IMG/VR virus record: IMGVR_UViG_3300017773_004998 | Span: 1 to 51,052 of that record | DNA: 51,052 nt | Source: a virus | Reading direction: 5' to 3' (one strand) | In this document: piece after piece, positions 1-24,720 of the stretch | How the letters are laid out: each line of letters begins with the position of its first letter | Numbering within the stretch: the first letter of the stretch is position 1 | Notes under the pieces: model-generated | Told to the model about the DNA's origin: nothing | Databases searched by the model: none | The model's input: the letters and a program-made list of their open reading frames with translations, nothing else | Translations under genes and position numbers: made by a program

Positions 1-230
1 ATATTCCTTATAGAAGAAGTAGTAAAATAAAACATTTAGTACACAACAATAATGGGTTTACAGATGGAAATTGGAAAGATAAAATGACAAGATGGAACCA
101 GTTAAAATATCATAATGAAGTTTCAAAAGGATTTCATGATATAGAAAAAGACGGTATTAATTCATTAGATTTTAAATTGAATAAGAGAAGTACAGTTAAT
201 AAGTATATACATTTAAACGTAGAATTATGA
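1..230 (+). CDS. GT7 (beta-1,4-galactosyltransferase-like) protein, C-terminal part only
   Basis: An open frame reads from position 3 to a TGA at 228-230 and is cut by the left edge of the window. The visible 75 residues resemble the last third of beta-1,4-galactosyltransferases. A basic segment with KIKHLVH is followed by EKDGINSLDFKLN, which lines up with the DGLNSL motif near the end of family GT7, and by a final beta-strand-like IHLNVEL. The stop overlaps the next gene's ATG (ATGA), so the two are probably translationally coupled. The next gene also begins with a GT7 domain, so this is the downstream member of a tandem pair's upstream copy. The family assignment comes from motif resemblance only; donor and acceptor sugars are unknown. 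Confidence 0.6.
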   Translation, partial: IPYRRSSKIKHLVHNNNGFTDGNWKDKMTRWNQLKYHNEVSKGFHDIEKDGINSLDFKLNKRSTVNKYIHLNVEL

Positions 231-1645
231 AACTAGGAGTATGTGTCCCTTATAGAAATAGAGAGTTACATATGCATGAATTTATTCCTAAGGTAGGAAA
301 ATATCTTAAGAATAAAAATATTGATTTTCAAATATATTTTTGTCATCAAGTAGATGATAAACTGTTTAATAGAGGAGCTACAAAAAACATAGCAGCTAAA
401 CACGCATTTGAAGAAGGATGTGATTATATAGTTTGGCATGATATTGATATGATACCTGAAGAAGGAGGAGGAGCAGATTATTCCTTCCCCGAAGAACACC
501 CAAGACATATCGCTACTAAAATATCTCAAATGGACTATAAACTAAAGTATCATGAATATTTCGGTGGTGCTGTAGTATTTAGTAAAGAACAGGTTGAAAG
601 AACTAATGGGTACTCAAATGATTATTGGGATTGGGGAATGGAAGATGACGATCTTTTTTGGAGATGCTATAAAGAAGGGTACACCAATGATACATATTTA
701 TTAAAAAAAGCTATCAAACAAAAGTTTTTATCCTTTAATGGTTCCGATTCGGTAGTTAAAATACCATATACTAGAAGTATTAAAAGTATACCTTCTCGAT
801 CACATACCATTTCAGTCTTATGTAGAGCATATCAACAACCTGATAAACAAAAAATACACTTAATAGGTGATAATGAAGCTAAGTACGTTGAATACCCTAT
901 TTTAAGAATACCAGGGTACGACTACGGATTATCATTTAATAATTCTAGAGCTCTTTCGTTACAGTTTTGGAATATGTTTCATCAACATAACTATATGTGG
1001 GTTAAAAGGTATGATAGTCAATGGTCTTGGTTAACAGTAGTAATTGATGATATATCTAAAAAAGCTCACTTTTATTTAAACGGTACAGAAGTTGATTCAA
1101 AAGGAGGCTACGGTAGTCCTTCTCCATTAGAATTTAACGGTAGACTTTTAAAGTATGATTCAAAACATATTTATTTAGGATCATCGTTACATGAAAAAAA
1201 TGATAGCGCTGCTAAATACTTTAAAGGAGATATAGCAAGAGTTTATGGGTGGAATAGAGCTTTATCACCTAAAGAGGTTGCTAACTTACATAAAGAATTA
1301 CCTCTAGACGAAATTGCAATTAACACTAATTTTACTAACGGTATACCTGAAGAGTATAACGTAGTTAACGTAGAATTAAAAGAAGAAGAAGTAAAGATAC
1401 CTAACTCTATACTACCACATAGAGTAGACGGTAAAATGAGATGTTTACCTCATAAAGACGAAGGATTAGTAAATGGAAAGTGGGCTAAAGGAGAAACAAC
1501 AGCTGCTAATGAAAGAAGGTATGTATTAAAAATGCAACAAGATAAATTAAATTATAAACAAGATGGTATCAAGCAAGTTAAATATGAGTTTGTTAAAGAG
1601 ACTAAATTTACTCCTTGGGCTAAGATGATAGATATAAAATTATGA
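227..1645 (+). CDS. Bidomain protein: GT7 galactosyltransferase-like + LamG/concanavalin-like domain
   Basis: Residues 1-160 match the GT7 catalytic fold. They show the PYRNR opening (8-12), the FNR motif (47-49), a metal-binding DID (72-74, in WHDIDMIP) and the acceptor/catalytic segment WDWGMEDDD (134-142), equivalent to WGWGGEDDD of beta-1,4-galactosyltransferases. Residues of about 190-365 look like a LamG-type jellyroll, with the typical LTVVIDD, HFYLNGTEV and GDIARVYGWNRALSPKEV pattern. About 100 further residues are not recognised. By family knowledge the first domain transfers a hexose from a UDP-sugar, and the second may bind a glycan acceptor. The start overlaps the previous gene by 4 nt and the end overlaps the next by 4 nt. 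The substrate is unknown. Confidence 0.75.
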   Translation: MKLGVCVPYRNRELHMHEFIPKVGKYLKNKNIDFQIYFCHQVDDKLFNRGATKNIAAKHAFEEGCDYIVWHDIDMIPEEGGGADYSFPEEHPRHIATKISQMDYKLKYHEYFGGAVVFSKEQVERTNGYSNDYWDWGMEDDDLFWRCYKEGYTNDTYLLKKAIKQKFLSFNGSDSVVKIPYTRSIKSIPSRSHTISVLCRAYQQPDKQKIHLIGDNEAKYVEYPILRIPGYDYGLSFNNSRALSLQFWNMFHQHNYMWVKRYDSQWSWLTVVIDDISKKAHFYLNGTEVDSKGGYGSPSPLEFNGRLLKYDSKHIYLGSSLHEKNDSAAKYFKGDIARVYGWNRALSPKEVANLHKELPLDEIAINTNFTNGIPEEYNVVNVELKEEEVKIPNSILPHRVDGKMRCLPHKDEGLVNGKWAKGETTAANERRYVLKMQQDKLNYKQDGIKQVKYEFVKETKFTPWAKMIDIKL

Positions 1646-3057
1646 CAGCAGAAACTTCGAAAATTTCTTTTACTAATCCTGACTATATAAATACTAAGAA
1701 AAAGTTAGATAAGGTAGGATGTGGAATGTGTTTAGCAAAATGGACACAAGTAACCATACACTTACAAATGGGTCAAACTCATTCATGTCACCACCCGTCT
1801 ACACATCATATACCGGTAGGAGAGCTAAAAAGAAACCCATCAGCATTGCACAACACTTTATACAAAAAGCAGAAAAGAAAAGAGATGCTTGAAGGTAAAA
1901 GACCTAAAGAATGCGATTACTGCTGGAATGTAGAAGATAACTCAGATTCATTCTCTGATAGGACTTTTAAATCTAACGAAAGTTGGTCAGCTCCACATTA
2001 CGATGAAATAGTTAATTTAGGTTGGAGACAAGATTTCAACCCCCGTTATGTAGAAGTAGCCTTTTCTAATAATTGTAATTTTAAATGCTCTTATTGCGGT
2101 CCTTCTTTCTCGTCAGCTTGGGTTCAAGAAGCTAAAGAACACGGTCCTTACCCTACTGATGATAGGTTTAACGATATAGAGTATTTAAAAGCTAATAAAA
2201 AAATGCCTATACACCATAAAGAGTATAATCCATATGTAGAAGCATTTTGGAAATGGTGGCCTGAATTATATAGAGATTTACATACATTTAGAATAACAGG
2301 TGGTGAACCTCTTATGGCTAAGGATACTTGGAAAATTTTAGATTATATTATTAATGAACCTAATCCTAATACTAATTTAAATCTAGCTATTAATTCAAAC
2401 TTAGGTATTAACGATGGATTAGTAAATAAGTTTATAGAAAAAATTAAACAGATTGAAGATGCTGGTAAAGTAAAAGAATTTATTATATTCACCTCAGTTG
2501 ATGCTTGGGGTGAACAAGCTGAGTATATAAGAAATGGATTAGAATTTAATAGATTCTGGGATAATATGAATAAGATATTAACAGCATGTCCTAGAGTAAA
2601 CCTAACTATTATGTCCACGTTTAATGGATTATCAGTTCCTAGTTACAGAAAGCTTATAGACGGAGTATATAAATTAAAACAAGATTATACCTCAACTGAT
2701 AGATACTGGGCTTCAGCAGTATTTTTGGATTCTTCTTATCTAAGATTCCCTACTCATCAAACATTGCAGGTAATTCCATCTGTATGGGCTAACGAAGTTC
2801 TTTCTTTTGCTCAATATGCTGATTATTTAGGCATACCAAAATTTGATAATAAGTTAGTAGGTTACTCTGATGTTGAAATACAAAAATTAAAAAGAGCGTA
2901 CGATTGGATGATTTCTCCTAAAGACGAACAAAAATTATTAAATCAAAGATCTAACTTTGGAAGATACTTTAGAGCACATGATGAAAGAAGAGGAACCGAC
3001 TTTAAAAAGACATTTCCTGAATTAGCTGATTTTTACGAATATACTTTAACTTTATAA
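1642..3057 (+). CDS. Radical SAM protein with N-terminal Cys-rich (twitch-like) region
   Basis: The radical SAM [4Fe-4S] site is CNFKCSYC at about residues 145-152 (CX3CX2C), followed by the RITGGEPLM motif expected for SAM binding. An unusual set of cysteines precedes the core: CGMC near residue 27, a CHHP near residue 50 and CDYCW near 92. This resembles the auxiliary-cluster (twitch/SPASM-like) part of related phage radical SAM proteins, but placed before the barrel rather than after it. The protein is 471 residues, soluble, with no membrane segment. It lies between two sugar-related genes (4-nt overlap upstream, 1-nt gap downstream), which suggests a radical modification of a sugar or peptide acceptor. 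The substrate cannot be deduced from sequence. Confidence 0.8.
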   Translation: MTAETSKISFTNPDYINTKKKLDKVGCGMCLAKWTQVTIHLQMGQTHSCHHPSTHHIPVGELKRNPSALHNTLYKKQKRKEMLEGKRPKECDYCWNVEDNSDSFSDRTFKSNESWSAPHYDEIVNLGWRQDFNPRYVEVAFSNNCNFKCSYCGPSFSSAWVQEAKEHGPYPTDDRFNDIEYLKANKKMPIHHKEYNPYVEAFWKWWPELYRDLHTFRITGGEPLMAKDTWKILDYIINEPNPNTNLNLAINSNLGINDGLVNKFIEKIKQIEDAGKVKEFIIFTSVDAWGEQAEYIRNGLEFNRFWDNMNKILTACPRVNLTIMSTFNGLSVPSYRKLIDGVYKLKQDYTSTDRYWASAVFLDSSYLRFPTHQTLQVIPSVWANEVLSFAQYADYLGIPKFDNKLVGYSDVEIQKLKRAYDWMISPKDEQKLLNQRSNFGRYFRAHDERRGTDFKKTFPELADFYEYTLTL

Positions 3058-3058
3058 G

Positions 3059-3784
3059 ATGAAAATAGGTTTTGATAACTCTTATCTGTTTCCTGCAGGT
3101 AATAAAAACAAATTAGTAAGAAACGAACCCGATGCTATATGGACTAAAGACTGTACTGTAATGGTCCGGTTCACCCCAGATGTAGATAAGTTTGTAGAAG
3201 AATTAGGTGATGAATGGAGAAAAGCTGGCTGTGTAATAGGTAAAAACGGAAAACATATTGGAGTATTTTATGCATTAGGTAGATCAGGAGAAGATATACA
3301 CCACTTTGTTATGTTTGAATATTGGTGTTATAATGAAGAAAAAGGAGATGATGATATAAAAACTATTATGTTTGATGTAACTGATAAAAAAGATAGTGAA
3401 TATTTTGATGTTATTATAAAAAGGAGAGGAAATAAATTTATCTTTTCTTTAAACGGAGAAGAAAAAGTAGAAGAAATTCAAAAACTTGCTGATTATAGTT
3501 ACAGTTTTTTATGGGTTGGAGCAGCTACTAGAGTTAACCCTGATCATAATGATATATTTTATGGTGATATAGATAGAATGCATATACAATACGGCATTAC
3601 ACCTGAAAGGGATATTGAACTATTTTTTAATAATTACGAAGAATTCAATAATAAAACTAAGTCTCTTACTAATAAAGAAAATATATTTACATCAGACTTT
3701 AAAAATCTTACTCAGTATAAAATATTAGATCAATCATCTAACGGTAACCACCCAATAAAATATAGTAAGGAATGGCTAGATTAA
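3059..3784 (+). CDS. Concanavalin A/LamG-like domain protein
   Basis: This 241-residue protein has the beta-strand rhythm of a LamG/ConA-like lectin fold: TVMVRFTP near 34, a central FDVIIKRRGNKFIFSLNG (about 118-137, the usual 'strand + ligand-free NG turn'), and FYGDIDRMHIQYG near 168-180, comparable to the closing strands of the LamG-like part of the gene at 227. It has no signal peptide or catalytic motif. It may be a glycan-binding partner for the neighbouring transferases or a virion lectin. Its last 13 nt overlap the next gene. The fold is inferred from pattern; I cannot distinguish a binding from a structural role. Confidence 0.5.
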   Translation: MKIGFDNSYLFPAGNKNKLVRNEPDAIWTKDCTVMVRFTPDVDKFVEELGDEWRKAGCVIGKNGKHIGVFYALGRSGEDIHHFVMFEYWCYNEEKGDDDIKTIMFDVTDKKDSEYFDVIIKRRGNKFIFSLNGEEKVEEIQKLADYSYSFLWVGAATRVNPDHNDIFYGDIDRMHIQYGITPERDIELFFNNYEEFNNKTKSLTNKENIFTSDFKNLTQYKILDQSSNGNHPIKYSKEWLD

Positions 3785-4626
3785 ATTTTAAAACTCTGTA
3801 CACTAACGGTGATAGCTGGACCGCAGGTGATATAGTTGATCCTGAGCTTTTTGGAGATAATCTTTCTAAAGTAAACGATCCTGATAATAAACCATATAGG
3901 TTGCCAAGAGTATGGCCTCATAAAATAGGAAAAGAGCTTAATATAGAAGTGATAAATAATAGTCATGCAGGAGCATCTAATGATAGAATATTTAGAAGTA
4001 CTATTAATGATATAGTAAATTTACTTAAAACTAATAAACCAGAAGATTTATTAGTAGTAATTGGATGGTCATCACCGGAAAGAAGAGACTTTTTTTATAA
4101 ATGGCATGAACAAGATACGGGAGAATGGGAATGCCTCTATCCTGGTGAACTAGAACATTGGACATCAGAAAGAAAAGAGTTATTAGACTTCTACAAGTTA
4201 TATGTGACAAACCACTGGTATCCTGAAGAATTTATAACAAGACACTGTTTAAATAATATTTCTTTACATTATTTTTTAAAAGGATTAAATATTAAACACA
4301 TATTTTTTAATAGTTTTTATGAGAACAAAGAAGATGTAATAGATAAAGATAAACACCAGTTATTAGAATCTCCTAAGTTTGATACTTTTATCAATGATTT
4401 TTACAACGATACAGATATTAAGACTTTAAAAAGGTTAGAAATTGACAACGTATTAACAGAGTATACTTCTGTTTATAAAAATGTATTTTTTAAAGATACT
4501 TTTATTTCTTATTTACTATCTTTTGATATAGAAGAGAAAATATTAGATTACCACCCTACTGAAAAAGGACATGAACTATGGGCAAAGTATTTAAGTAGTT
4601 ATATATATGATAAGTTTAGAAGATAA
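3772..4626 (+). CDS. SGNH-type hydrolase/acyltransferase-like protein
   Basis: The sequence opens with YTNGDSWTAG, which fits block I of the SGNH fold (Ser in GDSW). NNSHAGASNDRIF supplies the Gly/Asn blocks, VVIGWSSPERR continues the fold, and the C-terminal DYHPTEKGHELWAKYL carries the Asp-x-x-His pair of block V. Members of the fold remove or add acyl groups on glycans. The protein is 284 residues, cytoplasmic by appearance, and is one of four proteins of this type in the same operon; its closest relative here is the one at 21884 (both begin NGDSWT.G). It overlaps neighbours by 13 and 20 nt. Whether it deacetylates or acetylates a sugar is not visible. Confidence 0.65.
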   Translation: MARLNFKTLYTNGDSWTAGDIVDPELFGDNLSKVNDPDNKPYRLPRVWPHKIGKELNIEVINNSHAGASNDRIFRSTINDIVNLLKTNKPEDLLVVIGWSSPERRDFFYKWHEQDTGEWECLYPGELEHWTSERKELLDFYKLYVTNHWYPEEFITRHCLNNISLHYFLKGLNIKHIFFNSFYENKEDVIDKDKHQLLESPKFDTFINDFYNDTDIKTLKRLEIDNVLTEYTSVYKNVFFKDTFISYLLSFDIEEKILDYHPTEKGHELWAKYLSSYIYDKFRR

Positions 4627-5887
4627 TTTTAATCAAGTAAGTTTACATAATCCATCTAAAGAAATACTTTCTTTATATGAAGGTGTAACTGAAATAGAAG
4701 AATTCGATCCTAGGGGATATAGAATGGTAAGACCTTTATTTTCACATTCCGATATGCCAAGATTTATTAATATAAGAAAGGTTAAAGAAGCTGATTTTAA
4801 TTGGGATCAAGAATTTATATACCCAGTAGTTTTACATCATAATAATGAATTAGCTGCTAAATACTTAAATCTTATACCTTCTCATATTTTAGAAAAAATT
4901 AAATCTAAACAATGCAAATTAGTTTTAGATAATACCATGGAGGGAGATAGAGTAGCTAAGTTTTATACAGCTTTATACAGGTCTATTGATGGGCTAGGTC
5001 TTCCTGCATCTCAAATATATTACGTTACTAATAGTTTAGTAGGAGAAGTAGAACATGAAACGTGGAAAAATAAAAATTATAGACAGCATAATAATATAAA
5101 TGTTATCTCATTTATGTATAATGTTATGGATGTACAACGTTTAAAAGGTTTAGGTCATTTACCCGAAGTAGTAGATATAGAAAAAGAAATACAGTACAAA
5201 AGAGATAATTTTTTAAATATAAAAGAGTTTTTAAAAGTTAATAGAACAGGAAGACCCGAACGTAATCTTTTTATGTTTCATATTAATAAAAATAGACTAT
5301 ATGATAAGTTTAACATAAGCTTCCCTGAACTCCCTGATTATACTTATCCTTCTATAAATTTTGGAGATTTACTAAATATTGATAATATAAGGGAAGTAAA
5401 AGAAAAATGCCCTATAGATATCGATAAAACTGATGCTACTAACCATGGAGAACCTGGCTTCGGTGAAGGTAAGTTTAACGCAGATTTACCTTTTCAGCCT
5501 ATACATTATAGAAATACCTTTATAAGTGTAGTTATGTGTGCATTTCCATTTGTTGAAAACTGCTGCCATTTGCATAGCTCTACGTTTAATCCTATATACT
5601 GTGGTCATCCTATATTACAGTTTGGTCCTCATAAACATTTAGAAGTATTAAGAAATAATGGATTTAAAACTTTTGACAAATGGTGGGATGAATCTTACGA
5701 TGAGTTACCAGAAGGATGGGATAGATTTAAAGGAGTTCTAAAAAATATAGATATTTTGAGTAAAAAATCTAAAAAAGAAATATTTGAAATGTATGTAGAT
5801 ATGAAAGAAAATTTACAACATAACTCTGATTTAATTCAGAACTATAACGGCAGTAATATACTAAGACAAAGAATAATTAATGAATAA
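4607..5887 (+). CDS. Putative glycosyltransferase-like protein of unknown specificity
   Basis: This 426-residue protein has no motif I can assign with certainty. The C-terminal half contains FISVVMCAFPF, then a segment running from SSTFNPIYCGHPILQFGP through EVLRNNGFKTFDKWWDESY. That segment resembles the 'nucleotide-binding' half of GT-B-like proteins found in phage and polysaccharide clusters (E/S-x-K/P-x-x-x-G-x-P-x-I-x-F/Q-G-x...GFKTF). It is placed within an uninterrupted glycan operon, overlapping neighbours by 20 and 8 nt. The start ATG at 4607 lies inside the previous gene, which is normal for this operon. A glycosyltransferase role is therefore inference from weak motif and context. 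Confidence 0.45.
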   Translation: MISLEDNFNQVSLHNPSKEILSLYEGVTEIEEFDPRGYRMVRPLFSHSDMPRFINIRKVKEADFNWDQEFIYPVVLHHNNELAAKYLNLIPSHILEKIKSKQCKLVLDNTMEGDRVAKFYTALYRSIDGLGLPASQIYYVTNSLVGEVEHETWKNKNYRQHNNINVISFMYNVMDVQRLKGLGHLPEVVDIEKEIQYKRDNFLNIKEFLKVNRTGRPERNLFMFHINKNRLYDKFNISFPELPDYTYPSINFGDLLNIDNIREVKEKCPIDIDKTDATNHGEPGFGEGKFNADLPFQPIHYRNTFISVVMCAFPFVENCCHLHSSTFNPIYCGHPILQFGPHKHLEVLRNNGFKTFDKWWDESYDELPEGWDRFKGVLKNIDILSKKSKKEIFEMYVDMKENLQHNSDLIQNYNGSNILRQRIINE

Positions 5888-6293
5888 CGATTTTTACAAC
5901 AGTAAGTTTACTATTAGCGGAGATATAGATGATATTGATATACCATTTAACTTTGACATTTACTCAGGAAGTAATAGTTCAATATATATGCAAATTAAAG
6001 AATATGAATTTAATAATGATGAATTTTATGACGGTCATTTAATAGTAAGAGATAAAAGTAAATTAAAGGATATAGATTTAGACAATTTAAATAAATATAA
6101 ACTTACTCCTAACAATGTATACTTTTATAAAGTTGAACATAGTGGATTTGATTGGGATTGTAAAGTAGATGATAGCGTGATTTTATGCAGCTCCTGGGTA
6201 GTACCATTCGTGCTAAACGAACATAAAATTGATAACTCACTGTATGGAGAAATGGCAACCCATAGAGTAGAAATAAAAGAATTTAATCAATGA
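5880..6293 (+). CDS. Hypothetical acidic protein in glycan operon
   Basis: I do not recognise this 137-residue protein. It is acidic and Asp-rich at the N-terminus (SGDIDDIDIPFNFDIYSG), has no membrane segment, and ends with ATHRVEIKEFNQ. It overlaps the gene before by 8 nt and the gene after by 4 nt (ATGA), so it is surely translated as part of the operon. It may be an accessory subunit of a neighbouring transferase, but nothing in the sequence shows this. Confidence 0.6.
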   Translation: MNNDFYNSKFTISGDIDDIDIPFNFDIYSGSNSSIYMQIKEYEFNNDEFYDGHLIVRDKSKLKDIDLDNLNKYKLTPNNVYFYKVEHSGFDWDCKVDDSVILCSSWVVPFVLNEHKIDNSLYGEMATHRVEIKEFNQ

Positions 6294-7069
6294 GAATAGC
6301 AGTTTGTATTAGCGGACAACTAAGGAAATGGAAGGTAGGTCACCATAATCAAAAATGGTTCTGGTCTACTGTTAACCAGCCTAATGTTCAGGTAGATTAT
6401 TTCGGACATACTTGGACTTATAGCGGGGATAGACAAGGAGTATCTCAGCCGTATATTAATAGAGAAGTTAAAGAAGAGGAATTTTTAGAATTCGCAAATG
6501 CATTTAAGTTTAAAAAAATCCTTTTCGATGATAGACGTACTCCTTTTTTCTATAATAATGATCATTGGAGTAGTTTATTTTATAGTTTAAGTAAGTCTCT
6601 TATGTTAAAAAGAGAGTACGAGATAGAAAATAATTTTACTTATGACGTAGTAGTTAAGTCTAGACCTGATGTAATATTTAGTCCACGAAAGCATTTTGAA
6701 ATACCTCCACTATTTAACAACTGCCTTCACTCTACTCATGGCGGCCCTATGGGTATGGAGTTTAATAAGTATAATTTTAATGATTGTGTGTTTTTGGGAA
6801 ATTCCTATACTATGGATCTTTTAACTAATTTATACTTTTACAGACAAGCAGGTATTAATGAAAATACAAAAGGTAATAAGAATATACATCCTTTAGGACC
6901 AGGTACATTAATGATGGAATATTTTAGTGAATACGGTATTACACCATTTTTTGATTTATATTTTCAAGAAACGTTGCTAAAAGAGGGAGGTCCTGAAGGT
7001 TTAGATTTATTTGATATAAAAGACTATCATATTATGAATAAATATTTTACAGAGTGGTATAATAAATGA
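6290..7069 (+). CDS. Putative glycosyltransferase of the 'SGQLR...RPD' type
   Basis: The protein begins MRIAVCISGQLRKW and carries a later YDVVVKSRPDVIF (about residues 117-129) and a GHPLGPGTLMMEY-like segment. The Gly-Gln-x-Arg start and the R-x-D motif in the middle are the two signatures of a family of putative viral/bacterial glycosyltransferases. The same two signatures recur in the C-terminal third of the fusion protein at 13628 (AICFWGQTRTY and DYIVWTRSEILF), so the window carries two members. It has 259 residues, with 4-nt overlaps on both sides. Catalysis is not proven and donor sugar is unknown. Confidence 0.55.
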   Translation: MRIAVCISGQLRKWKVGHHNQKWFWSTVNQPNVQVDYFGHTWTYSGDRQGVSQPYINREVKEEEFLEFANAFKFKKILFDDRRTPFFYNNDHWSSLFYSLSKSLMLKREYEIENNFTYDVVVKSRPDVIFSPRKHFEIPPLFNNCLHSTHGGPMGMEFNKYNFNDCVFLGNSYTMDLLTNLYFYRQAGINENTKGNKNIHPLGPGTLMMEYFSEYGITPFFDLYFQETLLKEGGPEGLDLFDIKDYHIMNKYFTEWYNK

Positions 7070-8001
7070 AAAAGAAGCTAGCTATTTTTGTATGTTCTAA
7101 CGGATTAGGACACTTTAGTAGGGTATTAAAAATTACTAAATACCTAACATCAGTTTATGATGTAGATATATATTGCGAAAAATTTCAATACGAAAAGTTT
7201 AACCCTAATTCTAATGCTAAATTTATATTCTATCAATTAAGTAATATAAGATGGGATGAAGCATTAAGATCTAACCAAGTTAATAGTGAAAACTATCAAA
7301 AATGGTGCGCCTTATATGGACCAGTTAGTTTAAAGTACGATACAGTAATTAGTGATAATATTGTCGGCTTACTTAGGTATAGGTCTGATATTATTTTATC
7401 AGGTTCGTTTTTATGGAAGGATGTATTTTATAATAAATTTAAAAATAATAAAATTACCGATTTTGATTCTGAACTACTTGAAAAATATAATCCGTTAATA
7501 CTTACTAATAAGTATGTAGAGACTGGTTCTTTAAAAAACTATAATAATAAAGTAGGATTTGGATGGGGATGCGATATTAAGAAAAATAATACTTGGGATA
7601 TATCTAAAAAAATAGTATTAGCTAAACCTAGTCTGAATTATTTAGATTCTTATACTAAGTTTTTAGATAAAATTAATAGCTTAAATTTAAATTTTAAAAT
7701 AGAAACTAGTGTGCATAAGACTGCTAACTGCACCTTTATTATTAGACCAGGAGTAGGAATGTTAACTCACTGTATTGAAAATAGCATACCAGTATTAGCG
7801 TTATATGATATGAATGATTCAAATGAAATAATTGAACTAGCTAAAAAAGTAGATTCTCTTGGTATAGGGTATTCCCATAATATTAATAAAGGTTTTGATA
7901 TAAAAAAGTTTATGGATAATACAGGTAATACTATTTATAATAAATTAAAATTTGATAAAGAAGGTTATAGAAAGGTAGCTGAGTATATAAAACAATTATA
8001 G
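7066..8001 (+). CDS. GT-B glycosyltransferase-like protein (GT1/GT28-like)
   Basis: The N-terminus KKKLAIFVCSNGLGHFSRV matches the Gly-rich loop of MurG/GT28-type GT-B enzymes (N-G-x-G-H-x-x-R). Near residue 220 the segment FIIRPGVGMLTHCIENSIP matches the donor-binding region (S/R-x-G-x-x-T-x-x-E-x-x-x-x-x-x-P) that precedes a loop positioning the nucleotide sugar. The protein is 311 residues, about 40-50 shorter than typical MurG. It is presumably cytoplasmic or peripherally membrane bound. It overlaps the previous gene by 4 nt and is followed after 2 nt by a dehydrogenase that may supply its donor sugar (inference). Confidence 0.65.
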   Translation: MKKKLAIFVCSNGLGHFSRVLKITKYLTSVYDVDIYCEKFQYEKFNPNSNAKFIFYQLSNIRWDEALRSNQVNSENYQKWCALYGPVSLKYDTVISDNIVGLLRYRSDIILSGSFLWKDVFYNKFKNNKITDFDSELLEKYNPLILTNKYVETGSLKNYNNKVGFGWGCDIKKNNTWDISKKIVLAKPSLNYLDSYTKFLDKINSLNLNFKIETSVHKTANCTFIIRPGVGMLTHCIENSIPVLALYDMNDSNEIIELAKKVDSLGIGYSHNINKGFDIKKFMDNTGNTIYNKLKFDKEGYRKVAEYIKQL

Positions 8002-16203: not shown

Positions 16204-16206
16204 GTT

Positions 16207-17226: not shown

Positions 17227-18245
17227 TGAAAAGCTATTTAAAGGATATTATAAGAAAAGTAGGACAGGAAGATAAAAGTAAATACGAAATTAACCTTTCT
17301 CAAAACGAAAGAAATAGTAGTTTACCTGAAACCCTATTTAATAAGTTTAAGGATAGTATAAGCGAAAAAGATTTATTCTTCTATCCTAATACATCTATTC
17401 TAAAAGATAAAATTAGTAATTACCACGGACTACAGCCTGATAATATAATGCTTACACCAGGTTCAGATATTGGAATAAAAACCTTATTTGAAGTATTTGA
17501 TGTAAAAGATAAGAATATTATAAGTACTAATTTTTGTTTTCCTATGTACGATGTATATAGTAGACTTTATCAAACTGAGTTAAGAAAAGCCAGGTATACT
17601 AATACTACGTTTAATATAAGAAACCTATATGATAAAATCGATAAAGATACACAGTTTATCATACTAGCTAACCCTAATTCCCCAGTAGGCGACTATTATG
17701 ACTTTAAAAAAATAGAAAAGCTTTTAGATACAGGTATTTACGTAATAATAGATGAAGCATATCAAGAATTTACTGGAAAAGAAAGTTTTGTTTCGAAAGT
17801 TAATAAGTATAAAAATTTAATTGTATTAAAAACTTTTTCAAAAGCTTATGGTGCAGCAGGCTGTAGAGTTGGTTATATTGCAAGTCATAAAGATAATATT
17901 GAAATTATAAGTAAATTTAGATTTATGTACGAGGTTTCTAGTATAGGAATGAAGTATGCTGAATTTGTTTTAGACAATATTGAATACTATAACAGGTATA
18001 TAGACAAGACGATAGAATTTAAAAATAAGACTATAAAAAAATTATCTATGAAGACCATTAAACTTATAGATACCTCAGCAAGCTGGTTTTTTATAGAATC
18101 TAATCGTAAAGTAGAAAGAATATTTGATAAAAATAAAGTTAGTTATAGACTTTGTGAATTGCCAATCAAAGGTAAATTTATAAAAGTAAATTATGATTTA
18201 ATTTTAAAAGATTCTCAACTTATAAAAGACCTACTTAATGTATAA
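17226..18245 (+). CDS. PLP-dependent aminotransferase, histidinol-phosphate aminotransferase-like (class I/II)
   Basis: INLSQNERN (about 22-30) and MLTPGSDIGIKTLFE open the fold. FIILANPNSPVGDYY has the Asn of the PLP site, VIIDEAYQEF the Asp that contacts the pyridine nitrogen, and LKTFSKAYGAAGCRVGY (about 202-218) the Schiff-base Lys and phosphate-binding Arg. The HisC-type order is clear. The 339-residue length is normal. In a glycan operon such enzymes are more likely to place an amino group on a keto-sugar or a small phosphorylated precursor than to make histidine, but this is inference. It overlaps the next gene by 8 nt. Confidence 0.8.
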   Translation: MKSYLKDIIRKVGQEDKSKYEINLSQNERNSSLPETLFNKFKDSISEKDLFFYPNTSILKDKISNYHGLQPDNIMLTPGSDIGIKTLFEVFDVKDKNIISTNFCFPMYDVYSRLYQTELRKARYTNTTFNIRNLYDKIDKDTQFIILANPNSPVGDYYDFKKIEKLLDTGIYVIIDEAYQEFTGKESFVSKVNKYKNLIVLKTFSKAYGAAGCRVGYIASHKDNIEIISKFRFMYEVSSIGMKYAEFVLDNIEYYNRYIDKTIEFKNKTIKKLSMKTIKLIDTSASWFFIESNRKVERIFDKNKVSYRLCELPIKGKFIKVNYDLILKDSQLIKDLLNV

Positions 18246-19644
18246 TTACAGTAAAAATAGTAAGGAGTCTATGGAATACGTTCTCAAAGAGAGTGATATA
18301 TACCATGTAACTAAACTACCTGTTAGTTTTGCAGCTTTAGATGCTACTTGTCAAAAAAGCGATCCTGGTTTTCTCTCATTTCAGTGGCTATACGATAGGT
18401 TAGGTTTTTTTAATGGTATGGTTGGGTATAATTCTTTTGTTAAAAGAATATTAGAGTTTCAACAGTATGGAGACTACTTAAAATCTTTGAGGCAGAGGTT
18501 TAATATAACTCATGAAATGATTAACTGCAACCTTAACAGTAGCCTTCCAGTACATATATCAGTTTCCAAAAAAAAAAATATATCAGAAAAAATAGAATTA
18601 GATTTAAGATCAACCTCAGATACAGAATTTGCAGTTACTATACACCCTGGTCAAACAAGAGCACAAGGTAGCGTGTTTTTAAGAGATCCAATTAAAAATG
18701 TTATTTTATATATTAATAAAGAACATAAGATAAAATTAAAAAAATATAGTTTTATAAAAAAAATAGAAACTATAGAAGATTTACTTCCTATATATAGAGT
18801 TGATAACACATTTAGTAGTGATAAAACCGGTACTATAGATTTTTATATGCCTGGTAGAGAGCATATTAAAGATATAAATAAAGGTTTAAAAAAACATATT
18901 CAAAATAATACTCATATTTTAAAAGCAAATGCTATATATTCTGAAAATGAGAAAAAGGAAAAAATTAGTCTACATTCTAGTACGCTTTATTTACCTAAAA
19001 CATTTACTACAATGAATAATTTCAGTAGAATATTTTTTAATAACGATATAAACATATACGCTGAAAATCAACCTGAAGCAAAAACTATTATACAACAAGG
19101 TAGAAAAAGTATTCTGTCTAGGGTATTGAATGATGAATATGGTAAAAAGTACTTTTTAGATGCTACAAGAACAGCATCTCAAAAATTAAAAGAACCTGAA
19201 CTAAATGGAGGTACAACTTGGGGGAGATGGGCTTCTTTAGGTAAACGTAATCATGATTTTATTCATCATAACTTAACCAATGAAGAAAGTATAATATCAG
19301 AAGTAGCGAACGTAATAATTGGACTAGAAGGTAAACCAAAACAAAAATTTTCTGGATTCATTTTACGTACTCCATTTGAAACTAAAATAGACGATTTTAA
19401 AGGAATGGTAATGCTTAATGATTATCGAGGATTTTGTATTACTTTAGATACTAAGAAACTTAAAAAGGGTATTAATAGAGATATATACGAACTTTTTTTC
19501 TGTATTCCTTCTACTTTTTCAATCGCAAAAACTAAAAACAATAGTATATCTATAATTAACTGTGAACATGAATACTGGAAAACAGAGCAAAATTATAAGG
19601 AGTATATTATAAATAATGAATTTTTTCAAGAATGGCAACAATAG
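18238..19644 (+). CDS. Hypothetical protein, no recognised family
   Basis: I do not recognise this 468-residue protein. Visible stretches that look conserved in character are FAVTIHPGQTRAQGSVFLRD (about 132-151), YMPGREHIKDINKG, and NGGTTWGRWASLGKR (about 321-335). There is no membrane segment, nucleotide-binding loop or metal-binding cluster I can name. It is embedded in the glycan operon between the aminotransferase and a dehydrogenase, overlapping them by 8 and 13 nt. A single large coding frame with the same base use as its neighbours argues that it is real. Confidence 0.6.
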   Translation: MYNYSKNSKESMEYVLKESDIYHVTKLPVSFAALDATCQKSDPGFLSFQWLYDRLGFFNGMVGYNSFVKRILEFQQYGDYLKSLRQRFNITHEMINCNLNSSLPVHISVSKKKNISEKIELDLRSTSDTEFAVTIHPGQTRAQGSVFLRDPIKNVILYINKEHKIKLKKYSFIKKIETIEDLLPIYRVDNTFSSDKTGTIDFYMPGREHIKDINKGLKKHIQNNTHILKANAIYSENEKKEKISLHSSTLYLPKTFTTMNNFSRIFFNNDINIYAENQPEAKTIIQQGRKSILSRVLNDEYGKKYFLDATRTASQKLKEPELNGGTTWGRWASLGKRNHDFIHHNLTNEESIISEVANVIIGLEGKPKQKFSGFILRTPFETKIDDFKGMVMLNDYRGFCITLDTKKLKKGINRDIYELFFCIPSTFSIAKTKNNSISIINCEHEYWKTEQNYKEYIINNEFFQEWQQ

Positions 19645-20456
19645 GTTTTTTAACTCCATATAAGCATCTTCCTAATTTTTGCAAATCTATCAAAGGTAGG
19701 TTTAAAGATTTAAATTTAAAAGACATAAAGAGAAATGATATCAAAATATTTCAAGGAATCGATTATTTATTTGCTGCTCCGAATTATTTAAATTATATTT
19801 TAGAAGAAGAAGATATTGAAGGTATGAATTTAAAAGGTATTATTTCTCCATCAACAGGTATAAATCATATTAATATAACGTCTAAACCAATATACAGTAT
19901 AAAAAATGACTCTATACTTGAAGAAATAACTTCGACTGCTGAACATAATTTATTTCTAATATTATCATTAGTAAGAAACTCTGATAAAATAGAAGAACTC
20001 AGTACTAAGACTTTAGGTATTTTAGGATATGGAAGATTGGGGAAAATGCTATACAGCATATGTGAGAATATATTTAAGGATGTAAAAATTAGTGACGATA
20101 GCTACACAGATGATGATTTTTTTGAAAAAACTGATATTTTAAGTATTAATATAAACTTAGAAGATAGAAATATAGATTTTATTAATAAAGACTATATTAA
20201 TAAATTCAAAAAAAATATACTGATTGTAAATACTGCTAGAGGAGAAGTAGTTGATGAAAATGATATATTAGATACTATTACCGAAGGTAAAGTTTTAGGG
20301 TACGGTACTGATGTAATAAAAGAAGAGCATACACCTAAAGCAACTAATTTAAAAATTACATCAGATCCTAGAATTATTAGAACTCCCCATGTTGGAGGAA
20401 CAGCAATCAGTGCTCAAGAAAAAGCATATAAGAGAGTAATCGAAAAATTAAATTAG
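19632..20456 (+). CDS. D-2-hydroxyacid dehydrogenase-like protein
   Basis: TLGILGYGRLGKM (about 125-137) is the NAD-binding G-x-G-x-x-G loop. LIVNTARGEVVDE (about 200-212) contains the catalytic Arg, and RTPHVGGTA (about 254-262) the catalytic His, as in phosphoglycerate dehydrogenase-like enzymes. The 274-residue length is about 40-50 shorter than usual (N-terminal substrate domain is reduced). With the aminotransferase upstream it could form a keto-acid/amino-acid or sugar-acid step. It overlaps the preceding gene by 13 nt and is followed after 2 nt. Confidence 0.8.
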   Translation: MATIGFLTPYKHLPNFCKSIKGRFKDLNLKDIKRNDIKIFQGIDYLFAAPNYLNYILEEEDIEGMNLKGIISPSTGINHINITSKPIYSIKNDSILEEITSTAEHNLFLILSLVRNSDKIEELSTKTLGILGYGRLGKMLYSICENIFKDVKISDDSYTDDDFFEKTDILSININLEDRNIDFINKDYINKFKKNILIVNTARGEVVDENDILDTITEGKVLGYGTDVIKEEHTPKATNLKITSDPRIIRTPHVGGTAISAQEKAYKRVIEKLN

Positions 20457-20458
20457 GT

Positions 20459-21070
20459 ATGACTAATCAACAACGTATAACATTAGACTTTATTTACAAC
20501 AGTCCAAACTTTAAGGTGTACCGTGGAATTTTAGGTAAAGATGGAAAGTACTTTTCGGCACTAGAGTATATAATAGCAAATAAACCTAAGTTAATTCTTG
20601 AATATGGAGGAGGCAAGAGTACATTTATTATAGGTACATTACTCAAAGAATTAAACTACGGTGGCAAAATAGTAGGATTCGAAGATTCAAAAAAGTATTA
20701 TGACTACCACGTAGCCAAAGGCTATAACGTAGACAATAACATAATATACACCCCAGAGTTTGTATTTGATAACAAGGTTTCTATAAAGGGAAAGACGTTT
20801 ACTTATATTCACGATTTGGAACCTTATAAAGAAGTAGACTTTATTATTTTAGATGGTCCTGATCAAAGGGTTACTCTTACAAGTATTACTTTAAATTTAG
20901 AACTATTTGTTGATTATTTAGAAAAAGAAATTCCTTATTTTATAGACGGACGAGGAGGTACTGTAGACTACTATAAAAAAGTAAAGAAATATAAATCAGA
21001 AGTAGTTGATATAAAAAGAGAAGAGTTATATCAAGAACTGTTAAAAGAATATCATGAAGATAATATCTGA
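20459..21070 (+). CDS. Putative SAM-dependent methyltransferase-like Rossmann protein
   Basis: LILEYGGGKSTFIIG (about 41-55) resembles motif I of class I methyltransferases (V-L-E-x-G-x-G-x-S-T), KIVGFEDSKKYYDY gives the acidic residue after strand 2, and DFIILDGPDQRVT (about 133-145) looks like motif IV. The protein is 203 residues. The last segment IDGRGGTVDYYKKVKKY is typical of small sugar O-methyltransferase-like proteins. The identity is by fold pattern only; a nucleotide-binding role other than methylation is possible. It overlaps the next gene by 17 nt. Confidence 0.5.
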   Translation: MTNQQRITLDFIYNSPNFKVYRGILGKDGKYFSALEYIIANKPKLILEYGGGKSTFIIGTLLKELNYGGKIVGFEDSKKYYDYHVAKGYNVDNNIIYTPEFVFDNKVSIKGKTFTYIHDLEPYKEVDFIILDGPDQRVTLTSITLNLELFVDYLEKEIPYFIDGRGGTVDYYKKVKKYKSEVVDIKREELYQELLKEYHEDNI

Positions 21071-21887
21071 GCTTTGCCAAAACCATAATGGAGATAGGGC
21101 TATTCTTGAGTCTATGATAGAATATGCTGCTTGTGATAGTGATATACTAAAAATACAATCAATCAAAGCAGATACGCTTTCTAAGAGAGAAGAGTATGAG
21201 AACTTCAGACCATATAAAGAAGAGCATAAAAGATTAAAAGGAATTGAATTATCATGGGAAGATGAAAAGTTTTTTATAGATAAATGTAAAGAACATGATG
21301 TAGAATCTATGACTACGTTATTTACACCTAATCATACAGAATACTTTAATTCTTTAGGGTACGATAATTTAAAACTATCTGGGTATTCTATTCCGGCATT
21401 TGATTATGGTAAAAAATTAAAAGATTTAAACTTTAAAACTCTTTTCTTTTCAGCATCAAGTTTAACTTTGAAAGAAATTGGTAAAACAATAGCTAATCTA
21501 AAAAAAATGGATATAGATTTTTATCTTTTAGGATGTACATGTGTATACCCTACTCCCTTAGAAAAAGCTAATCTACAAAATATAGATTTTTATAAATTTT
21601 ATTTTGCCTTAGATAAGATTGGGTATAGTGATCATTCTAATCCTCATGAAGATAATTTACTTACTGCTAAACTAGCTATATTTCAAGGTATAGATGTATT
21701 AGAAAGGCATTTTACAGTCCTAGAAATAGATGAAACTAGAGATGGAAAAGTTTCAATGACCCCTTCAATGTTATCTGAGTTAAAAAGATTTAGTAATTTA
21801 ACTATTTCTGAGCAATATGAAGAACTTAATGAGTTTAACGAACAGCAAATTTTTAACCATAAATACTATAGAGGAAGATTCGAATGA
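21054..21887 (+). CDS. neuB: NeuB-like N-acetylneuraminate/nonulosonate synthase, core domain only
   Basis: ISELCQNHNGD (about 4-14) matches the NeuB opening E-x-x-x-N-H-x-G. DILKIQSIKADTLSKREEY gives the K-x-Q motif, TTLFTPNHTEYFNSLGYDNLK the PEP-binding barrel part, and IGYSDHSNPHEDN plus VLERHFTVLEIDETRDGKVS the conserved GYSDH and E-(R/K)-HFT-x-D signatures. It condenses PEP with an N-acetyl-hexosamine-type substrate to give a nine-carbon sugar acid. At 277 residues it lacks the C-terminal SAF (antifreeze-like) domain of 340-350-residue NeuB. It overlaps the neighbours by 17 and 4 nt. Confidence 0.8.
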   Translation: MKIISELCQNHNGDRAILESMIEYAACDSDILKIQSIKADTLSKREEYENFRPYKEEHKRLKGIELSWEDEKFFIDKCKEHDVESMTTLFTPNHTEYFNSLGYDNLKLSGYSIPAFDYGKKLKDLNFKTLFFSASSLTLKEIGKTIANLKKMDIDFYLLGCTCVYPTPLEKANLQNIDFYKFYFALDKIGYSDHSNPHEDNLLTAKLAIFQGIDVLERHFTVLEIDETRDGKVSMTPSMLSELKRFSNLTISEQYEELNEFNEQQIFNHKYYRGRFE

Positions 21888-22660
21888 TTTTACTATGCAA
21901 CGGAGATAGCTGGACAGGTGGAATGGTTCCATCTCAAACACCAAATTTTGATTCTAAAAAAACTTTAGATTGGTATGATATAATACCTCATTTTGGCTAT
22001 GCGCACAAGATTAATAAACCTATTGGTAAAAATAGCTATAAGTATTACGATTCCTCTGTGTGGCCTAAAGTACTAGGTAAAAATTTAAACTTAGAAACTT
22101 GGAATGCTGGTAGAGCTGGAACAGGTAATCAAAGCATAGCATCCAGAACCATTACCAGTGTAGAGTATTTAAAGAAACTAGGTAAAAAAGATATTTTTGT
22201 AGTAGTATGCTGGTCTAGTAAGTATAGAGTTCATATATTAGAATATAGTCCTAATTCGAAAAAGTACGGTCCACATAATATTAGACCCCAACATCAAAAT
22301 GGCTATGCTTTTAAATTATTAAATAAAGAGATTAACGAACATATATTTGTAAATGATTGGATAGAAAATATACTTTTACTACAAAATTATTTAAAAGTAA
22401 ATAATATAAAATACTTATTTTTTAATGCATTTGATCATCCTGTTATTACTAAAGATAATCCTCTTGGTCATTTAATTGATAATAAAGACTGGGTAAATAA
22501 TACTATAGAAGAAAGTCATTTCAAAAATTTTATATCAAATAAATATAACACCTCATGGGATACTGATAATAAGTACTTTACACACAGTCATCCTCAAGAC
22601 ATATCACATAAAGCTTGGGGTGAATACTTAGTTGATTATATAGTAAAAAGTAAACTATGA
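21884..22660 (+). CDS. SGNH-type protein, related to the gene at 3772
   Basis: MILLCNGDSWTGGM provides block I, nearly identical in pattern to the protein at 3772 (YTNGDSWTAG). TWNAGRAGTGNQSIASR (about 72-88) has the Gly and Asn blocks, FVVVCWSSKYRVH corresponds to VVIGWSSPERR in the paralogue, and SHPQDISHKAWGEYLVDYI gives the C-terminal His block. It is 258 residues, with 4-nt ATGA overlaps on both sides. An O-acetyl-modifying role on a glycan (perhaps the NeuB product) is an inference. Confidence 0.65.
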   Translation: MILLCNGDSWTGGMVPSQTPNFDSKKTLDWYDIIPHFGYAHKINKPIGKNSYKYYDSSVWPKVLGKNLNLETWNAGRAGTGNQSIASRTITSVEYLKKLGKKDIFVVVCWSSKYRVHILEYSPNSKKYGPHNIRPQHQNGYAFKLLNKEINEHIFVNDWIENILLLQNYLKVNNIKYLFFNAFDHPVITKDNPLGHLIDNKDWVNNTIEESHFKNFISNKYNTSWDTDNKYFTHSHPQDISHKAWGEYLVDYIVKSKL

Positions 22661-24036
22661 AAAAAGTAATAAATTTAATTATATTTGATTTAGATGGAGT
22701 TCTAGTAGAAGCTAAAAATTTACATTTTCAAGCTTTAAATGAAGCACTATCCGAGATAAACCCGGGGTATAAAATAGACTGGAGTGAACACTTAAATAAG
22801 TACGATGGGTTAAAGACCTATCAAAAATTAAGTTTACTCTCAGAAGAAAAAGGCCTGCCTAAAGAAGTACATAATAAGGTATGGGAAAGAAAACAACATC
22901 TTACTCTTAGTAAATTAAGTACTTTGAAGAAAAATAAAGATTTGATAGAAACTTTTGTACATCTGTATAACCAAGGTTATAAATTAGCAGTTTGTTCTAA
23001 CTCCATTAGAAGAACATGTTTAACGGTATTATCAAAATTAGGTTTGATAGAATATTTAGATTTAATTATATCTAATGAGGATGTAAAAAATAGTAAACCT
23101 CATCCTGAAATGTACTGGAAAGCCATATCTATGATGAGCTGTCTACCCGAAGAAACATTAATTATAGAAGATTCACCATATGGGTTACTAGCAGCAGCCC
23201 GCTCTAAGTCCTATATATTACGAGTTAAAAATCCTACTGAAGTTACATATAATAGTATAAATAAAAAATTAAATGAAATAAACATGGGTAAACAACAAGT
23301 TACACCAGCATGGAGAGATCAAAACTTAAACGTTCTTATTCCTATGGCTGGAGCAGGTAGTAGATTTGAACAAGCAGGGTATACATTTCCTAAACCTTTG
23401 ATAGATGTAAAAGGAAGACCTATGATTCAAGTAGTAACTGATAATTTAAATATAAAAGCTAACTATATTTACGTAGTTCAAAAAGACCATAGAAAAAAAT
23501 ATAACTTAGATACCCTATTAAACCTTATAACACCAGGATGTAAAATAGTAGAAGTAGAAGGTGTAACAGAAGGAGCAGCTTGTACTGCACTATTAGCCAA
23601 AGAGTACATAGATAACGATAAACCATTATTCTTCGCTAACTCAGATCAGTTCGTAGAATGGGATTCAAATGAGTTTTTATATAAAATGAACGAAACTGAA
23701 GCAGATGGAGGTATGGTAACATTTAAAGCTACTCATCCTAAATGGTCATTTGCTAAATTAAACAGTGAAGGACTAGTAACTGAAGTAGCAGAAAAAAATC
23801 CTATATCAGATACTGCTACTGTTGGGTATTACTACTGGAAAAACGGCTCTGATTTTGTTAAATATGCTGAACAAATGATCGATAATAATATAAGAGTTAA
23901 TAATGAGTTTTATGTATGCCCAGTATTTAACGAAGCTATAAAAGATAATAAAAAAATAAGAACCTATAATATTGAAAAGATGTGGGGGTTAGGTACTCCT
24001 GAAGATTTAAAGTATTATATAGAAAATTATAAATGA
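22657..24036 (+). CDS. Fusion: HAD phosphatase + sugar nucleotidyltransferase
   Basis: Residues 1-215 are a beta-phosphoglucomutase-like HAD: FDLDGVLVEAKNLHFQAL (9-26, Asp nucleophile), VCSNSIRRT (motif II), and NSKPHPEMYWKA...IIEDSPYGLLAA (motifs III/IV). Residues about 220-459 are a nucleotidyltransferase: VLIPMAGAGSRFEQAGYTFP, FANSDQFVEWD for the metal Asp, and WGLGTPEDLKYYI. The second half is paralogous to residues 1-245 of the gene at 13628 (shared EGAACT, AEKNPISDTAT/AEKKKISNDAT, VNNEFYVCPV/INNEFYVAPV). A phosphatase or mutase and an activating enzyme in one chain points to channelling of a sugar phosphate. Overlaps are 4 nt at both ends. Confidence 0.8.
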   Translation: MKKVINLIIFDLDGVLVEAKNLHFQALNEALSEINPGYKIDWSEHLNKYDGLKTYQKLSLLSEEKGLPKEVHNKVWERKQHLTLSKLSTLKKNKDLIETFVHLYNQGYKLAVCSNSIRRTCLTVLSKLGLIEYLDLIISNEDVKNSKPHPEMYWKAISMMSCLPEETLIIEDSPYGLLAAARSKSYILRVKNPTEVTYNSINKKLNEINMGKQQVTPAWRDQNLNVLIPMAGAGSRFEQAGYTFPKPLIDVKGRPMIQVVTDNLNIKANYIYVVQKDHRKKYNLDTLLNLITPGCKIVEVEGVTEGAACTALLAKEYIDNDKPLFFANSDQFVEWDSNEFLYKMNETEADGGMVTFKATHPKWSFAKLNSEGLVTEVAEKNPISDTATVGYYYWKNGSDFVKYAEQMIDNNIRVNNEFYVCPVFNEAIKDNKKIRTYNIEKMWGLGTPEDLKYYIENYK

Positions 24037-24479
24037 TACTAATATCACATAGAGGTAATATAGATGGTCCTAATCCTGAAAATGAAAATAAACCTCCATA
24101 TATTCTTGATGCTATAATTAAAGGGTATGAGGTTGAAGTTGATTTTTGGTTTTCTAATAATAAATTTTATTTAGGTCATGATGAACCTCAATACGATATA
24201 CCTATAGAATGGTTAGAAAATAACTATAGAAAATTATGGATACATTGTAAAAATGTAGATGCTATAAATAAACTACATGAATTAGATAGAGGAGGTTTTT
24301 ATTTAAATTATTTTTGGCACGAAAATGATAAAGTAACCTTAACATCACAAGGGTATCTTTGGGCTTACCCAGGTGTTGACTGTTCCAATGGGATATCTGT
24401 TATGCCAGAATTAGCAAAAGATTTTAAACTTAAAAATGTATTAGGTATTTGTAGTGATTATATTATAAATTATGAATAA
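24033..24479 (+). CDS. GDPD-like (glycerophosphodiester phosphodiesterase) short protein
   Basis: HRG at residues 6-8 with Glu35 and Asp37 (EVEVD) and the LGHDE at 47-51 reproduce the four catalytic/metal positions of the GDPD/PI-PLC-like TIM barrel. The protein is 148 residues, about 60 percent of a normal GDPD, so the barrel is probably incomplete or highly reduced. It hydrolyses phosphodiesters in known families; here it might act on a phosphodiester-linked sugar or lipid. It overlaps its neighbours by 4 and 8 nt and has no signal peptide. Confidence 0.65.
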   Translation: MILISHRGNIDGPNPENENKPPYILDAIIKGYEVEVDFWFSNNKFYLGHDEPQYDIPIEWLENNYRKLWIHCKNVDAINKLHELDRGGFYLNYFWHENDKVTLTSQGYLWAYPGVDCSNGISVMPELAKDFKLKNVLGICSDYIINYE

Positions 24480-24720
24480 AATAAAATTAAAAAAAGAGCA
24501 TTTATTAGAGGTAGAAGAACTATCTAAAATGAGAGCTAATTTAAAGAATGAATTAGCATCTGTACAAGCTACTGAAATAGAATTAGAAAATTCAAAAGAC
24601 GTTGCACGAGTTAATTATAATAAGGTTAAAGCCTATGAAATAGAATTAGGTAAAAAATTAACCAATATATACGGTAACGGACGAATGAATTTAGACACTA
24701 AAGAATTTATTTCAGAATAG
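24472..24720 (+). CDS. Small coiled-coil phage protein
   Basis: This 82-residue protein starts MNKIKLKKEHLLEVEEL and consists of a long predicted helix with heptad-like Leu/Ile spacing, ending IYGNGRMNLDTKEFISE. The short terminal YG-x-G-x-(I/M)-N-L-x-T-x-E pattern is seen in small coiled-coil proteins of many T4-like marine phages as I remember them. It is the last gene of the glycan operon, overlapping the GDPD-like gene by 8 nt. Function is unknown; a structural or regulatory dimer is possible. Confidence 0.5.
   Translation: MNKIKLKKEHLLEVEELSKMRANLKNELASVQATEIELENSKDVARVNYNKVKAYEIELGKKLTNIYGNGRMNLDTKEFISE

Follow-up and report, generated by a model that had tools for sequence, protein, structure and literature searches.

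Introduction

Why would a T4-like marine phage keep a long, uninterrupted run of sugar genes directly beside its tail genes, and on what would the product be placed? The question is raised by a 51-kb IMG/VR virus record (IMGVR_UViG_3300017773_004998; GC content ~30%), analysed here over its whole length and termed the window, in which 29 + strand open reading frames (ORFs; g01 to g29) make up what we call the glycan island. Our answer, held with about even confidence, is that the island encodes soluble enzymes that together produce an acidic glycan and attach it to a virion protein in the infected cell before assembly. This reading draws on the gene content, order and conservation of the island, the selection acting on its genes, the lack of membrane proteins, the presence of an adenosine 5′-phosphosulfate (APS) kinase in the same phage and the co-inheritance of a candidate acceptor.

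A glycan island beside the tail genes

The 29 ORFs tile positions 3 to 24720 with a largest positive gap of 3 nt, the others abutting or overlapping, which bears out the uninterrupted + strand block described in the initial annotation, although the island begins upstream of the window. The first gene, g01, is open at the 5′ end of the contig, so that the window starts within the island; relatives place the island start 4–5 kb further upstream, and the whole island in these phages covers ~29 kb and ~35 genes. Its upstream part, as seen in relatives, contains a glycosyltransferase (GT) of the GT8-like type (DUF6734), a methyltransferase, a GT2-like enzyme and an additional GT7–LamG protein. The 50-nt overlap between g16 and g17 probably reflects which start codon is chosen; with the internal ATG at 12819 it shrinks to 14 nt.

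Genes were named through Pfam, NCBIfam and PHROGs, about half of the 29 confidently, with g04, g06, g08, g09, g11, g12, g20, g24 and g28 assigned solely by motif or weak similarity. Pfam confirmed most of the domains that had been called from the sequence, and a D-2-hydroxyacid dehydrogenase (g23) that had not been named was added to them. The proposed glycan operon is real and conserved, with enzymes of sugar activation, transfer, sulfation and acylation type. Inactivated catalytic sites, which would speak against a working pathway, were looked for, and the motifs proved intact in g02, g13, g19, g21, g23, g25 and four SGNH proteins.

Downstream of the island come the genes for sheath, tube, baseplate, PolA, SSB, UvsX, exonuclease, DnaB, NrdB and NrdA, arranged as in Flavobacterium phage immuto, and the island belongs to a marine T4-like phage clade akin to that phage. 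No tRNA gene was found in the window. Fibre and neck genes on one side and the tail sheath on the other enclose the island in G003, G004, G008, G009, G011 and the 191-kb G058, while its upstream end is visible in G006 and G007 and its downstream end, with the sheath, in G010 and G018. At the upstream edge in relatives, the island is preceded by a fibre-type protein with an S74 chaperone domain, a 183-aa protein and a Ser/Thr-rich protein. In a more distant phage (G001/G002; L117–L123) the same ordered island is found, but on the terminase side instead of next to the sheath. As side observations, G058 (L434, ~114–116 kb) has, within the island start, a second oxygenase resembling prolyl hydroxylases together with a sulfotransferase-like gene, and in related phages that do not have the island core (L044 and L045) only radical SAM genes resembling g03 lie upstream of the sheath.

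Conservation, selection and allele exchange

Two viral scans yielded 80 sheath loci and 21 NeuB loci, of which the long records were annotated. The 11 relatives in the gene-order comparison were picked for carrying g25, so the presence of that gene in 11/11 is uninformative; 14 of the 28 testable island genes occur in all of them. Gene order gave a tau of 1.00 in nine records (p down to 7e-30) and 0.83 in two, at per-gene identities of 25–95% across the collinear relatives. The ratio of non-synonymous to synonymous substitution (dN/dS) was 0.025–0.36 in comparisons with G008, the nearest long relative, for all the island genes that it has; the values are rough because dS is near-saturated, and the island genes are under purifying selection. 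In the sheath tree, 37 of 38 island-bearing loci fall within one group of 46, the base of which is weakly supported; the island is missing from immuto, G005, G012 and G017.

The genes g10, g11, g13, g17, g20, g24 and g26 vary between relatives, which also carry extra sulfotransferases, SGNH proteins, a short-chain dehydrogenase/reductase, a KdsB-like enzyme and more GTs. Compared with G008, most island genes have a dS of ~0.8–1.6, whereas the adjoining sheath and tube genes have 0.25–0.48, and g25 is 88% identical to its counterparts in G014/G007 and 87% to that in G001, whose adjacent g21 and g23 reach only 34–56%. Both contrasts indicate that alleles pass between lineages while the order is retained. 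The swapping of content between relatives, raised earlier as a question, is therefore seen in genes that come and go and in exchanged alleles, but does not extend to gene order, which is fixed. Variable genes, extra genes in relatives and recombining alleles would also suit a patchwork of unrelated auxiliary genes in a plastic region, with no single product. Collinearity, the 14 genes in 11/11 records and purifying selection on all testable genes largely refute that explanation, however, and we regard it as very improbable.

Two observations concern individual genes. g10 and g13 are jointly absent from G010, G011 and G018, three records that provide too few independent cases, and possibly form one decoration branch. 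g18 is a single 551-aa fusion in the window and two adjacent ORFs in G003, G004 and G006–G010, the result of gene fusion or fission.

A NeuB-like core with cellular counterparts

The synthase g25 is 277 aa long, with a NeuB TIM-barrel domain spanning residues 25–245. Residues E6, K33, K107, S192-D193-H194, E217-R218-H219 and D230 are invariant in 11 phage sequences; most of the invariant active-site positions align with NmNeuB residues, and one NmNeuB Asn corresponds to Cys163 in g25. The earlier description of the island as a near-complete pathway is not supported on three counts: g25 has no match to a SAF (antifreeze-like) domain in Pfam; g10 comprises the NAD-binding and central domains only, two of three, with the C-terminal domain missing; and none of the nonulosonate precursor enzymes sought (UDP-GlcNAc 2-epimerase, sugar dehydratase and DegT aminotransferase) is among the Pfam matches of the 29 genes, although orphan genes or host supply could fill these steps.

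A genome scan found short relatives of NeuB in Pelagibacter, SAR116, Thaumarchaeota, Prochlorococcus and others (L154–L188), which align end to end with g25 at 32–39% identity. A cytidine monophosphate (CMP)-sugar synthetase, the counterpart of g15, lies within 4.5 kb of the cellular gene in 30 of 34 loci, a nucleoside diphosphate (NDP)-sugar dehydrogenase like g10 lies nearby in 16, and a D-2-hydroxyacid dehydrogenase like g23 and a homologue of the ‘NGLGH’ GT g09 in six each; in the phage, g23 lies two genes before g25. The cellular loci differ in that their dehydrogenase is a longer CBS fusion and that membrane proteins are usually present. Because g25 has no SAF domain, no precursor enzymes are recognised and the gene set matches that of the cellular loci, we interpret the core of the phage island as a variant of an ulosonate-type pathway found in cells, and probably not as the classical sialic acid pathway.

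Other island genes are unusual for simple glycan assembly, namely those for the radical SAM proteins, the HisC-like aminotransferase and the orphan core proteins g14 and g22, for which PDB profile searches gave no match and Foldseek comparison of AlphaFold models with the PDB no credible one. Phage DNA glycosylation is known, and these genes could serve to hypermodify the phage’s DNA with a sugar derivative, or to make a small metabolite through radical SAM, aminotransferase and dehydrogenase steps. The DNA-modification genes of immuto (QueC/D/E, FolE and DpdA) nevertheless sit elsewhere, as they do in G058, and because these 7-deazaguanine genes lie elsewhere in relatives we do not take DNA hypermodification as the principal function. 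Nor is there an obvious part in DNA modification for the sulfotransferase, the LamG–GT7 protein or the tail position, and we consider products of both kinds quite improbable.

Virion or cell surface

Kyte–Doolittle hydropathy was used to test for membrane segments. None of the 29 island proteins in the window has a membrane-like segment and only one match, with a single segment, was obtained among the 323 ORFs of ten islands, whereas 19 of 25 cellular short-NeuB loci encode a protein with at least four transmembrane segments. A lipid-linked exported polymer normally requires membrane proteins, and the contrast with the cellular loci thus makes glycosylation of a virion protein in the cytoplasm more likely than export of a polysaccharide. 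The island is soluble machinery encoded amid virion genes, one feature expected of a virion glycosylation system.

The same enzymes might instead act on the host surface, with island nucleotide sugars and transferases altering the precursors of O-chain or capsule, the host exporting them and superinfection being blocked. This is the role proposed by the pelagimyophage authors for GTs in the same genomic place (PMC7029224). A similar gene set occurs in cell-surface loci of marine bacteria, and decoration by SGNH proteins and a sulfotransferase is compatible with a change of serotype. Known serotype-converting cassettes encode membrane proteins, however, and beyond the match mentioned above the ten islands encode none, hence no initiating phosphoglycosyltransferase, flippase or polymerase. 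In addition, late expression is expected of an island amid structural genes, when a change of surface would be of little use, and we judge remodelling of the host unlikely. Of the three destinations put forward in the initial annotation (virion, host surface and exopolysaccharide), the virion is favoured by position among structural genes, whereas the lack of membrane proteins counts against a phage-encoded exported polymer.

All ten phages with a tail-side island have the Ser/Thr-rich protein, the 183-aa protein next to it and the GT8-like gene, which are missing from the six others compared, some of them fragmentary records. The Ser/Thr-rich fibre-region protein beside the GT8-like gene is the best candidate for the acceptor.

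Sulfate supply and a second glycan cassette

A second glycan cassette, at 45430–50842, follows NrdA. Contig L270, of the same phage, is 100% identical to the window across g38–g51; beyond the shared part, its positions 15458–20939 encode thioredoxin, QueC, a sulfotransferase-like protein (by eye), a GT-like protein, an APS kinase, a HAD protein, a 2-oxoglutarate-Fe(II) oxygenase, a nucleotidyltransferase and g14-family genes. The APS kinase (PF01583, 7e-16) is retained in G058 (66%). Among records of at least 100 kb, an APS kinase is found in 8 of 12 that bear glycan genes vs 1 of 9 others (one-sided p 0.016, kinship ignored).

The PF11397 gene of the second cassette is very common in viral contigs, with 332 stretches. 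Together with a prolyl hydroxylase, it raised the idea of a Skp1-type hydroxyproline–GlcNAc modification, both genes being present in this phage. The pairing is not general, PF13640 occurring in only 11 of 39 PF11397-bearing viral records, and for that reason the idea was not adopted.

Table 1. Features of the glycan island, its downstream boundary and the second cassette. PLP, pyridoxal phosphate; AF2, AlphaFold model; pLDDT, predicted local distance difference test
Feature	Position	Strand	Assignment	Evidence	Relatives with gene
g01	3..230	+	5′-truncated; resembles GT7–LamG C-terminus (first GT7–LamG gene of relatives)	Residues shared with g02 C-terminus and full-length G003/G008 copies	
g02	227..1645	+	GT family 7 + LamG fusion	PF02709 5.6e-20, PF13733 2.2e-15, PF13385 4.9e-11	11/11
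g03	1642..3057	+	Twitch-type radical SAM protein	NF033640 1e-104	11/11
g04	3059..3784	+	LamG-like by eye	No Pfam match	11/11
g05	3772..4626	+	DUF6071/SGNH	PF19547 3.7e-17; GDS and DxH motifs present	
g06	4607..5887	+	GT-like by eye	No family match	11/11
g07	5880..6293	+	Small protein, no function assigned		11/11
g08	6290..7069	+	GT-like	phrog_13607 (no known function); by eye like g18 C-terminal half	11/11
g09	7066..8001	+	GT-B-like ‘NGLGH’ protein	24–25% to cellular proteins, E 1e-5	11/11
g10	8004..8771	+	NDP-sugar dehydrogenase	PF00984 1.5e-21, PF03721 2.4e-14; catalytic-Cys motif FGGMCLPKD	
g11	8755..9612	+	SGNH-like	Motif	4/11
g12	9593..10435	+	Weakly RXYLT1_C/exostosin-like GT	PF24785 0.0058, below cut-off	9/11
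g13	10429..11073	+	Carbohydrate sulfotransferase (Sulfotransfer_2)	PF03567 3.8e-18; phrog_3347 1.2e-21	
g14	11063..11866	+	Core protein with RGTHR motif	AF2 pLDDT 78.7	11/11
g15	11863..12537	+	CMP-ulosonate-synthetase-like cytidylyltransferase (CTP_transf_3)	PF02348 7.7e-11	11/11
g16	12515..12832	+	Small HAD-type phosphatase, EcbF/BcbF-like	TIGR01689 4.6e-07, below cut-off; phrog_1238 1.2e-23	
g17	12783..13631	+	Paralogue of g14 family, likely start 12819	Alignment	1/11
g18	13628..15283	+	Sugar nucleotidyltransferase + GT-like half fusion	PF00483 8.5e-08	
g19	15280..16203	+	Radical SAM/SPASM protein	PF04055 3.1e-11, PF13186 3e-07	11/11
g20	16207..17226	+	SGNH-like	Motif	7/11
g21	17226..18245	+	HisC/CobD-type PLP aminotransferase, PLP lysine kept	PF00155 7.4e-38, TIGR01141 6.5e-57, PDB HisC 1.5e-40	
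g22	18238..19644	+	Core protein	AF2 pLDDT 78.8	11/11
g23	19632..20456	+	D-2-hydroxyacid dehydrogenase, catalytic Arg/Glu/His invariant	PF02826 3.2e-28; alignment; PDB PGDH 4e-24	
g24	20459..21070	+	Class I methyltransferase-like by motif/eye	35% to cellular ORF in L175	6/11
g25	21054..21887	+	‘Short’ NeuB-like synthase	PF03102 5.6e-32; PDB NeuB 4.3e-16; invariant active-site positions	
g26	21884..22660	+	DUF6071/SGNH	PF19547 2e-06	
g27	22657..24036	+	HAD phosphatase + sugar nucleotidyltransferase fusion	PF13419 2.1e-30, PF00483 1.4e-10	
g28	24033..24479	+	Phosphodiesterase-like by eye	phrog_34507 (no known function)	7/11
g29	24472..24720	+	Small coiled-coil-like protein, final gene ahead of sheath		
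Tail sheath	24837..26600	+	Downstream boundary of island	PF04984 2.3e-13; 65% identical to immuto	
g48	45430..46713	+	PF11397 GlcNAc-transferase, second cassette	PF11397 7.7e-72	
g49	46706..48286	+	NolO-type carbamoyltransferase, second cassette	phrog_1601 5.9e-121, PF16861 1e-61	
g50	48271..49170	+	Second cassette	No family match	
g51	49163..50842	+	HtrL_YibB family, GT-like, second cassette	PF09612 6.9e-13	

Proposed pathway

In the pathway that we propose, g25 would join phosphoenolpyruvate to some aldehyde or sugar, giving an ulosonate-like acid that would lose its phosphate through g16 or the HAD domain of g27 and then be activated with CMP by g15. Another NDP-sugar would be produced by g18 and g27 and may be oxidised to a uronate by g10, while g23 and g21 could contribute a keto/amino side branch. 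Chains would be assembled by the GT7–LamG protein, g06, g08, g09, g12 and the upstream GT8-like and GT2-like enzymes, sulfated by g13 and other sulfotransferases with 3′-phosphoadenosine 5′-phosphosulfate (PAPS) obtained via the phage’s own APS kinase, and capped by SGNH proteins and methyltransferases. The acceptor would be the Ser/Thr-rich protein just upstream of the island in relatives, next to the fibre-type S74 protein, and the adjacent GT8-like enzyme probably modifies it first. Shielding of the virion or tuning of adsorption would be the likely benefit.

Several points weigh against a virion glycan. The phage is uncultured, the glycan and its place on the virion are predicted from genes, and 15 of the 29 island proteins have no Pfam match at E≤0.01. 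The hydropathy test is crude, and host flippases may serve the phage. In G001/G002 the island persists although both the Ser/Thr-rich protein and the GT8-like gene are missing, so it can do without either. A scan for the T4-like late promoter TATAAATA gave no enrichment (15 occurrences vs 22.5 expected), and sigma-70 and terminator scans gave results close to shuffled sequence, so that the timing of expression is read from position alone. Finally, the association with APS kinase ignores shared ancestry, and several of the records are fragments.

Comparison with known systems

The closest phage precedent is the GT-rich host-recognition region of pelagimyophages. Pelagimyophages and cyanomyophages are T4-like marine phages that carry GTs and a UDP-glucose 6-dehydrogenase near tail-fibre genes (PMC7029224), and the island likewise brings GTs close to the tail genes of a T4-like marine phage. 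The pelagimyophage cluster is hypervariable, with tail fibres intermixed (PMC7029224), whereas the island is a separate block of fixed order with a NeuB-like core. Synechococcus phages S-CAM9, S-PRM1 and S-8S55 encode a HAD–nucleotidyltransferase fusion 57% identical to g27. No relatives of g25 or g02 were found in the isolated-phage collection searched; relatives of g02 occur in 225 viral stretches. Virion glycosylation in mycobacteriophages reportedly involves a few transferases that draw on host sugars, not a biosynthetic island. The glycans there are described on capsid and tail tube subunits (Freeman et al. 2023, via PMC12619734).

The closest working analogue, by functional likeness and with no homology claimed, is the fibril-glycan cluster of giant viruses. 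Clusters of 6–33 genes in Megavirinae (Mimivirus, Moumouvirus australiensis and Tupanvirus) are described as making nucleotide sugars and moving them to virion fibrils, and those of M. australiensis and Cotonvirus as including an adenylyl-sulfate kinase and a sulfotransferase (PMC10117803). These clusters differ in belonging to viruses of eukaryotes and in using other sugars, and a NeuB-like synthase is not mentioned in the available parts of that source (PMC10117803). More tentatively, the island could be a near-self-sufficient cytoplasmic factory, with an ulosonate route through a SAF-less NeuB and a 2-hydroxyacid dehydrogenase, its own PAPS supply and the unmatched folds of g14 and g22, which would equip a dedicated appendage protein of the virion with a sulfated acidic glycan, in convergence with giant-virus fibril glycosylation.

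No precedent for a phage nonulosonate island was found in the literature searched, which does not prove that none exists. What is new is the short-NeuB route, together with the candidate acceptor and two core proteins whose folds have no match.

Sugars take up approximately one-seventh (29 kb) of the 191-kb genome of a relative, and an investment of this size, in a fixed order across divergent ocean phages, means that the product must matter to the phages. If it is borne by the virion, the glycan would change views of how phages adsorb and are shielded, and of phage-particle chemistry in seawater. Experiments can now start from a defined set of enzymes and a specific candidate acceptor, and the island points to an uncharacterised ulosonate-type pathway common to phages and to the abundant marine Pelagibacter and Thaumarchaeota.

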